DNA of 64,000 bases from an uncultured Flavobacteriales bacterium (lineage in GTDB: Bacteria > Bacteroidota > Bacteroidia > Flavobacteriales_G > Salibacteraceae): assembly GCA_913020435.1 (NCBI GenBank), contig CAJVZZ010000013.1, positions 32,684 through 96,683 of the forward strand, read 5' to 3'. Shown here piece after piece: positions 61,415-63,253 of this stretch. Made by a program: the position numbers and the translations under genes. How positions within the stretch are numbered: position 1 is the first letter of the stretch; each line of letters opens with the position of its first letter. The notes under the pieces were generated by a model. The model had not been told where the DNA came from, searched no databases, and saw nothing but the letters and a program-made list of their open reading frames with translations.

Positions 61415-61452
61415 GATATATCTACCGGTGGATATATCGAATTGTTAGCAGC
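61415..61452. repeat. attC/attI-like site 1 at the integrase-cassette 1 junction
   Basis: GATATATC-T-ACCGGT-G-GATATATC palindrome (61415-61438) followed by GAATT-GTTAGCAGC (61444-61452). Confidence 0.5.
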
Positions 61453-61460
61453 AACCTAAA

Positions 61461-62144
61461 ATGAAGACATTCACCAAGAAAATATTGCCCTATCTGATTA
61501 CCACTTTGTTGGTAATTGGATTATGGAAAATGTGGACTTGGACAGACAATTACGCTTGGAACCCAAAAGGAAAGGATTTGCTAATGCTCGACATTGCATT
61601 GACTTCTGTATTCTTCTACAAGACAATTTTTTGGTTATTAACAGCGAACCTCTTTGTATTCGGACTTCTCCGACTAAGAAAACGGAAATTCAAAACAGCG
61701 GGACTTGTATTCGCATTAACCCTAACTTATCACTTTACTGTTGGACAAATAATCGACAAAAAATGTGCTTTCCATTACTACTCTGTCTTTCATAACCAAT
61801 CAGTTGCCGAAGGATATATTGTCAGACCGATTGAAGAAGCAGGTTATCAAATTGGACCAATACTGATGGAGGTAATTGAAGACAAAGAAATGAAGTTCAG
61901 ACGATATGCAATTCTTGGACTTCAAAAAATTGACTATCAACCTGCGACTGAACTGATGGGAAATATTCTTTTTGACACTTCAGAATTGAAAATTTTTCGG
62001 GCAGACGCTTACGAAACTCTAAAGGCATTTGATAATGAGAATGGCAAAAAGCTTTTAGTCGAATTCAGGAATCAGGCGAAAGACTCTACAGAAATGAAAA
62101 TTGTTGAACTTGGTGAATATTTTTATGAAAATCGAGAAAAGTAA
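61461..62144 (+). CDS. Cassette 1 cargo: membrane protein with HEAT-like C-terminal region, unknown function
   Basis: Three hydrophobic segments then alpha-helical repeat-like EDKEMKFRRYAILGLQKIDYQPATELMGNILFDTSELKIFRADAYETLKAF. Confidence 0.65.
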   Translation: MKTFTKKILPYLITTLLVIGLWKMWTWTDNYAWNPKGKDLLMLDIALTSVFFYKTIFWLLTANLFVFGLLRLRKRKFKTAGLVFALTLTYHFTVGQIIDKKCAFHYYSVFHNQSVAEGYIVRPIEEAGYQIGPILMEVIEDKEMKFRRYAILGLQKIDYQPATELMGNILFDTSELKIFRADAYETLKAFDNENGKKLLVEFRNQAKDSTEMKIVELGEYFYENREK

Positions 62145-62151
62145 AAAGGCA

Positions 62152-62351
62152 GCTGCTAACACTGTATATAGCAAATAGGGCGTTCGGTGGTTTACGAAAG
62201 TTCAGTGCTATTTACAAACACCGCCAAATCGTTGATTTGGCTTTTAAGAATGAATAAATTAAAAACAAAATACAACGATTTGGCTCAGAGCAAACTTGAA
62301 AACTTATTGCTTCCTACTGCCCTACTTGCCATATACTAATCGTTGGGAATA
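62152..62351. repeat. attC-like site 2 (end of cassette 1 / start of cassette 2), long form
   Basis: GCTGCTAAC (62152-62160); stem GTATATAGCAAATAGGGC (62164-62181) / GCCCTACTTGCCATATAC (62319-62336), 16 of 18 paired; AATC-GTTGGGAATA (62342-62351). Confidence 0.6.
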
Positions 62352-62375
62352 ATTAAAATAGAGAAGAATCATTAA

Positions 62376-63170
62376 ATGGCAAGAGTAAAGGAAATTGATA
62401 AGGGCCGAGTATTAGATGGAATAATTGAAATTAAATTAAGTCATTGGAAGCATTTCCCTAAACTTATAACAAGAGATCTACTTGATTTCCCTTCTTATAT
62501 TTTTAGAGGACAGTCATCGGCCGCATGGAAATTAGATTCTTCGCTTGATAGACTTATTAGAAAAAAGAAAATAAAGCATCCTGATCCTCAAAAACATCTA
62601 AACGCCTTTAAAAATGCTTCTAAAGGACGAAGAGGAAAGAATCCACAAATTCTTGAAAATGATAATGAATGGTGGGCATTGGCGCAACATAACGGCCTTG
62701 CAACCCCTCTACTAGATTTTACTCGTTCTGCCTTTGTCGCATTGTATTTTGCGTTTTGGGATGAGTCCTTTACTGGAAAGGAACGCGCTGTATATGGTCT
62801 CCATTACTATTCTGTAAGAAAAAAAATGAATGAAATAGAAGATGAAGATGAAAATGAAAATGAAAAAGTTGATCTTTTCTACCCAGTTTCAGATGAAAAT
62901 GATCGACTCATTAGTCAATCTGGATTATTCATGAAGATGCCAATAAATTCAGATTTAGAAAATTTGGTTAAGAAGAATTGCAAAGATGACAAGCAAGCTG
63001 CGTTAATAAAGATAATAATACCAAATACGGAAATAGCGAACTGCCTCATTATGCTCAATAAAATGAATATTAACCATTCAACCTTATTTCCTGATTTATA
63101 TGGAGTAGCAAACTATGTAAATTGTTTATTCGACAAACCTAGGTATGATAATATTCAAGACCTTACCTAA
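62376..63170 (+). CDS. Cassette 2 cargo: FRG-domain protein
   Basis: YIFRGQSSAAWKLDSSLDRLI and WWALAQHNGLATPLLDFTRSAFVALYFAFWD match the FRG domain pattern. Confidence 0.85.
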   Translation: MARVKEIDKGRVLDGIIEIKLSHWKHFPKLITRDLLDFPSYIFRGQSSAAWKLDSSLDRLIRKKKIKHPDPQKHLNAFKNASKGRRGKNPQILENDNEWWALAQHNGLATPLLDFTRSAFVALYFAFWDESFTGKERAVYGLHYYSVRKKMNEIEDEDENENEKVDLFYPVSDENDRLISQSGLFMKMPINSDLENLVKKNCKDDKQAALIKIIIPNTEIANCLIMLNKMNINHSTLFPDLYGVANYVNCLFDKPRYDNIQDLT

Positions 63171-63188
63171 GATTAGTAAAAGAAAAAC

Positions 63189-63253
63189 TATTCCCAACAA
63201 TATGTATAGTGCATACCCTGCGGGATACGCACCATACATTAACCGTTATGGGC
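63189..63253. repeat. attC-like site 3 (end of cassette 2 / start of cassette 3), compact form
   Basis: TATTCCCAAC (63189-63198); stem ATGTATAGTGCATACCC (63202-63218) / GGGATACGCACCATACAT (63222-63239) with mismatches and one bulge; AACC-GTTATGGGC (63245-63253). Confidence 0.6.

Follow-up and report, generated by a model that had tools for sequence, protein, structure and literature searches.

The window, by which is meant the whole 64,000-nucleotide stretch of DNA that was analysed, very probably contains the start of an integron-like gene-capture platform, at which an adjacent XerA-like integrase lacking the I2 region would join the folded bottom strand of an attC to attI or to another attC. 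Tandem cassettes lie behind the integrase gene and an attI-like site, each cassette ending in an attC-like hairpin, and the integrase would cut at G^TT. The integrase gene (60259..61389, + strand) was assigned from its profile scores, its invariant residues and the absence of a 42-residue insertion. It is followed by a candidate Bacteroidota -7 promoter element, TATATTTG (61391..61398, +), which is Pc-like and lies upstream of the cassettes, and by an attI-like site, GCGGATATATCTACCGGTGGATATATCGAATT (61412..61443, +), which ends at the G^TT cassette boundary. The promoter element recurs at an orphan copy of the site on contig C10, and TACATTTG is found at the copy on C4; a TAnnTTTG element near the attI-like site was seen at some related loci only. 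Near-identical copies of the attI-like site occur on contigs C10, C18 and C4, each directly before a GTT cassette start, and analogous inverted repeats precede the first cassettes in related loci. The attI crossover point can be placed provisionally, from the cassette boundary alone.

Two complete cassettes and the beginning of a third follow on the + strand. Cassette 1 (61444..62341) carries an ORF at 61461-62144 whose 227-aa product is weakly HEAT-like, and its attC (62146..62341), recognised by core similarity and folding, consists of the R' box AAGGCAGCTGCTAAC and a 181-nt core. Cassette 2 (62342..63244) carries an ORF at 62376-63170 for a 264-aa protein with an FRG domain (candidate defence family PDC-S15), and its attC (63184..63244), recognised by folding, consists of the R' box AAAACTATTCCCAAC and a 46-nt core. 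Cassette 3 (63245..64000) begins GTTATGGGCAAG, has an ORF from 63410 and is interrupted by the contig end, position 64000 of the window being the end of contig C13 (96,683 bases; the draft genome comprises 2.95 Mb in 50 contigs). The preliminary description had already placed the start of cassette 1 (GTTAGCAGC at 61444) and its end (GCTGCTAAC, ending at 62160), those of cassette 2 (GTTGGGAATA at 62342 and TATTCCCAAC, ending at 63198) and the start of cassette 3 (GTTATGGGC at 63245), and all five placements were upheld. A search of the remaining draft contigs for the predicted end of cassette 3, GCCCATAAC, gave nothing convincing.

It had also been proposed that each cassette starts with the reverse complement of the bases at its end, and this was confirmed far above chance. 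The first 15 bases of a cassette show complementarity to the final 15 of its own R' box, as would follow if the two form one attC hairpin in the excised circle. Related loci, comprising relatives and 80 loci from named genomes, were retrieved with the integrase as bait, and to avoid circularity their cassettes were delimited without using the rule. An initial hairpin scanner was dropped because it gave too many background matches; instead attC cores were located by similarity to other attC cores only, and the intervals between neighbours were read as cassettes. In the 105 cassettes so delimited, starts matched their own ends at a mean of 9.03 of 11 positions, compared with a mean of 4.13 (sd 0.16, maximum 4.66) over 2000 permutations of the ends. 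The pairing follows a pattern of 10 bases, a fixed A·C mismatch at position 11 and 3-4 further bases, with an identity of 0.88-1.0 at positions 1-9, 0.66 at position 10, 0.02 at position 11, 0.74-0.88 at positions 12-14 and 0.40 at position 15, after which it falls to background. At position 11 every start carried A (105/105 cassettes), opposite C in 81. The preliminary description saw the rule but overlooked the resumption of pairing past this mismatch. When the rule was combined with a hairpin, 161 units were found vs 3 for a wrong-complement control (146 loci, 3.9 Mb of scanned strand), and chains of 4-7 rule-fitting cassettes were present in other genera. Within the window's own genome a third cassette, on contig C18, fits the rule (GTTACCACC/GGTGGTAAC). 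Hairpins after genes are common, and the complementarity might be put down to ordinary inverted repeats or to terminators flanking genes; this is hardly credible, given that the pairing partners are cassette-specific and lie 200 to several thousand bases apart, and that the pairing carries a fixed mismatch, ends at about position 15 and is not reproduced by the permuted or wrong-complement controls.

The comparison of these units with integron cassettes, made in the same description, is supported overall by an anatomy that includes an integrase, an attI-like site, tandem cassettes in the same direction, attC hairpins and strand-asymmetric folding, but it needs two qualifications: the R box is not RYYYAAC and the integrase is not an IntI. 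The R box consensus RYYYAAC/GTTRRRY is absent to the extent that GTTRRRY fits only 10/107 cassette starts. Start/end complementarity itself is a general integron trait and already known. Among the 13 cassettes of a class 1 integron used as control, 8 had complementary runs of 8-12 bases, and an earlier view of the long R stem as unique to the Bacteroidia system was softened accordingly.

The attC sites show a pronounced strand bias. An A·C mismatch in the top strand corresponds to a G·T wobble in the bottom strand, and among 107 attCs the non-Watson-Crick pairs of the L stem, in top-strand reading, were A·C in 172 cases vs G·T in 32 (binomial p ~2e-24); the hairpin score used for selection favoured top-strand G·T, so that the selection bias opposes the observed A·C excess. 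The bottom strand was more stable in 103/107 attC sites reconstructed in circular form. A consensus fold of 72 attCs gave -20.2 for the bottom vs -11.5 for the top strand, with 198 vs 6 G·T pairs, and at least two Watson-Crick types were present at 22/27 predicted pairs. Within the window, the bottom strand of the cassette 1 attC folds at -44.4 vs -39.4 kcal/mol for the top, and that of the cassette 2 attC forms a near-perfect hairpin (-19.5 vs -14.2 kcal/mol). The core of the cassette 1 attC shares 94% identity with an attC from a different genus, where the gene is another one; an Rfam search gave no match. Taken together, the wobble at position 11, the mismatch bias of the stem and the stability of the bottom strand suggest that the units are cassettes selected to fold as single-stranded bottom-strand hairpins. 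A bias of this kind would be anticipated for a bottom strand that functions as folded single-stranded DNA, which is the established situation in IntI integrons (PMC3053210). The substrate in vivo would then be a single strand, the bottom one, folded on itself into an almost uninterrupted duplex in which G·T wobbles take the place of the top-strand A·C mismatches.

The window integrase is a XerA-like tyrosine recombinase with an N-terminal extension of ~100 aa and the conserved residues R236, K261, H325, R328, H351 and Y360. It scored 230.2 bits against NF040815 (XerA/integron integrase), passing the cut-off of 220, and 193 bits against TIGR02249 (IntI), below the cut-off of 265. The IntI-specific insertion of 42 residues, missing from the window protein, was absent in 55/55 family members and present in 13/13 IntI, and the spacing from KGxKDR to HxxRH was 57-63 residues in the former vs exactly 100 in the latter. 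The nearest solved structures by sequence were archaeal and XerA-like (4a8e, 5hxy) and matched collinearly; the IntI structure 2a3v was matched in two pieces around 56 unmatched residues, and an AlphaFold model of the window integrase (mean pLDDT 86.9) had the same structural neighbours as the sequence. In a tree made by a quick method with SH-aLRT support, where several deep forks are open and relations among XerA-like groups are not settled, IntI formed one clade (100) with the cassette-integrase family outside it, and the closest neighbours of IntI were archaeal/CPR XerA-like proteins (97). Score, absence of the insertion and tree position rule out membership of the window integrase in IntI. 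A further possibility is that this is an ordinary integron with a diverged IntI that secondarily lost the extra domain. The layout of cassettes, attC and attI is indeed that of integrons and the start/end rule is shared with class 1 cassettes, but the separate IntI clade, its archaeal/CPR neighbours and the uniform distribution of the insertion make such a loss very improbable.

The N-terminal domain of the integrase (60259-60570) gave weak DUF5710-like sequence matches in relatives and weak, non-significant fold matches, among them the DNA-junction domains SMARCAL1 HARP and XPB, which are a lead only. Integrases of ~655-695 aa at three related loci (L141, L142, L146) contain a large in-frame insertion, intein-like or other, that splits the recombinase. 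Divergent from the integrase gene lies a small gene for a zinc-ribbon-like protein of 117 aa (59788..60141, - strand), whose Pfam matches are weak. Homologues were found in 19 related loci, and in every locus inspected they were divergent and just upstream of the integrase; the protein is possibly an accessory factor, perhaps a directionality factor or a regulator.

Homologues of the integrase (E <1e-55) were found in 104/399 sampled genomes of the phylum. True IntI above the cut-off was present in 110/399 genomes of the same sample, only one of which was in the window's class. Rule-fitting cassettes were located downstream of 18/30 named family integrase loci and upstream of 1/35; none were detected downstream of the other 12/30, where some contigs were short, and none beside XerA-like outgroup recombinase genes (0/22). 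A gene-capture system that looks, and probably works, like an integron is common in Bacteroidia, although its recombinase lacks the part considered essential for integrons. Family-like integrases were also observed in MAGs labelled Spirochaetota, Undinarchaeales and Firmicutes (L148, L134 and L135), and the integrase locus of the Spirochaetota-labelled MAG carries a rule-fitting cassette; these occurrences may reflect either transfer or mis-binning.

The association points to the neighbouring integrase as the enzyme that would carry out recombination. Alternatively, the cassettes could be moved by another enzyme, such as a distant IntI, XerC/D or competence-linked repair, with the neighbouring integrase incidental. 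Xer enzymes are present in the genome and several of its array copies have no adjoining integrase: orphan attI-like copies were found at C10:98076, C4:22212 and C18:1184, with a cassette after each. This alternative is nevertheless unlikely, as arrays lie directly downstream of family integrases across the diversity of the family and not beside outgroup recombinases, the window's draft genome contains no IntI above the TIGR02249 cut-off, and in the 399-genome sample true IntI occurred in that single genome of the class only. At C10 and C4 the sequence upstream is similar to the 3' end of the integrase gene, consistent with loss of the integrase from both. An exact-match search of the first cassettes at C10 and C4 gave no start/end match of more than 7 bases, and by eye the rule fits them only with one or two mismatches. 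The first gene after the C10 site (L055 8164-10686) encodes a GmrSD-like (DUF262) restriction protein that matches defence models. Contig C18 ends in a second array, consisting of the attI-like site GGATATATCTACCGGTGGATATATC, the cassette that runs from GTTACCACC to GGTGGTAAC and the start of the next cassette; the C18 attC and the attC of window cassette 1 share 88% identity.

Cassettes had a median length of 866 bp and the forward ORF was the longest in 98/104. The cargo of 75 cassettes included streptomycin adenylyltransferases, a beta-lactamase, an erythromycin esterase and a lincosamide nucleotidyltransferase-like protein, together with restriction-modification, FRG, Schlafen and OLD-like proteins. 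Cassettes turn over behind a conserved chromosomal site: the flank of a congener is collinear at 83% identity, from ~12 kb upstream into the integrase gene, and the DNA after attI is wholly different, the pattern that exchange of cassettes at a stationary platform would leave.

The tet(X) genes confer resistance to the last-resort tigecycline. The 'TnpF/XerD' protein beside tet(X3) (pHH1107, Acinetobacter plasmids) shares 56% identity with the window integrase in the matched region, is without the IntI insertion and falls inside the cassette-integrase family in the tree; its gene is followed by an attI-like inverted repeat, GTTATGTGCCATTTT and tet(X3). On a Myroides odoratimimus plasmid tet(X2) is a complete cassette (L232 4976-6303, NZ_CP013691.1), with the start GTTATGTGCCATTTT, its own end AAAACGGCACATAAC including the position-11 mismatch, and an attC of 122 bases with a strong bottom-strand preference, after which the next cassette starts. 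An attC-like hairpin of another cassette precedes it. The tet(X5) of an Acinetobacter plasmid also starts with GTTATGTGCCATTTT; it follows an estT gene that has an attC-like hairpin of its own. A copy of tet(X4) (L234 5140-5170, NZ_MH938807.1) keeps its cassette end as far as AAAACGGCACATAA within the R' box, followed by unrelated sequence. In the tet(X) studies consulted, transfer is described via ISCR2 or ICE, and in none of them as that of a cassette (PMC7530245, PMC7494873, PMC8693923). Independent experimental support for a platform of this kind comes from Riemerella, where aph(3')-IVb is inserted into the chromosome with fixed flanks of 27 bp (5') and 140 bp (3') and without homology; the 3' flank folds like an attC, and the authors of that 2026 study leave the enzyme and mechanism open (PMC13148043).

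It is likely that these observations describe a second, separately evolved integron lineage in Bacteroidia, whose XerA-like integrases recombine folded single-stranded attC without an I2 helix, possibly reading the hairpin by the N-terminal domain, and that tet(X) and other Bacteroidota resistance cassettes originated on platforms of this lineage, which would also account for the homology-free gene uptake in Riemerella. Published accounts treat the I2 helix as a feature of integron integrases alone and trace the origin of these enzymes to its acquisition (PMC7790495, PMC4792948). If the present reading is true, an integron-like system without I2 would show that single-strand cassette capture can be reached by a second route, and the evolutionary question of I2 acquisition would become directly testable. 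Surveys in which the IntI domain is required would miss a system without I2; one survey reported just one complete integron within Bacteroidetes proper (PMC9024848). The complete tet(X2) cassette, together with the tet(X3)-linked 'xerD' as a family integrase with an attI-like site, offers one mechanism by which tet(X) genes became mobile, and a mechanism is likewise offered for the insertion of resistance genes in Riemerella (PMC13148043). Searches of the open-licence literature yielded no description of a cassette system without I2. As far as that literature shows, the new elements are the role of the I2-less family as cassette integrases, an R stem of the form 10+1+4 whose polarity mismatch is fixed, the wide occurrence in Bacteroidia and the link to tet(X).

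Several known systems resemble the one in the window in part. XerA/NF040815 recombinases are the closest by profile and solved structure, with a collinear catalytic domain, but the window family has an extra N-terminal domain and is tied to cassette arrays that the outgroup XerA-like genes lack. CTXphi-type integrative mobile elements are whole phage genomes that use the host XerCD; there too Xer enzymes without I2 act on a folded single strand, whereas the window system has a dedicated integrase and arrays of cassettes. The pdif (dif) modules of Acinetobacter plasmids could also be moved by a Xer-type recombinase, but are bounded by 28-bp double-stranded XerC/XerD sites (PMC7530245), unlike the window-type boundaries, which are attC hairpins with cassette-specific arms. 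The xerD-tet(X3)-res-ISCR2 region shares a family member, its 'xerD'/TnpF, and an attI-like site before tet(X3), but was earlier described as an ISCR2-moved module, and its integrase is 5'-shortened and its attC partly deleted. IntI integrons, both class 1 and chromosomal superintegrons, are alike in having tandem cassettes in the same direction, attC sites whose bottom strand folds best, R'/R'' complementarity particular to each cassette and a G^TT boundary; their integrase lies beside attI, as the window integrase lies beside a candidate attI-like site. They differ in that the window-type integrase is without the 42-residue IntI region and outside the IntI clade, the R box is not RYYYAAC/GTTRRRY, the 10 bp of the R stem are followed by a fixed G·T on the bottom strand and then by 3-4 bp, and many members of the integrase family have an N-terminal extension of ~100 aa and a divergent zinc-ribbon gene.
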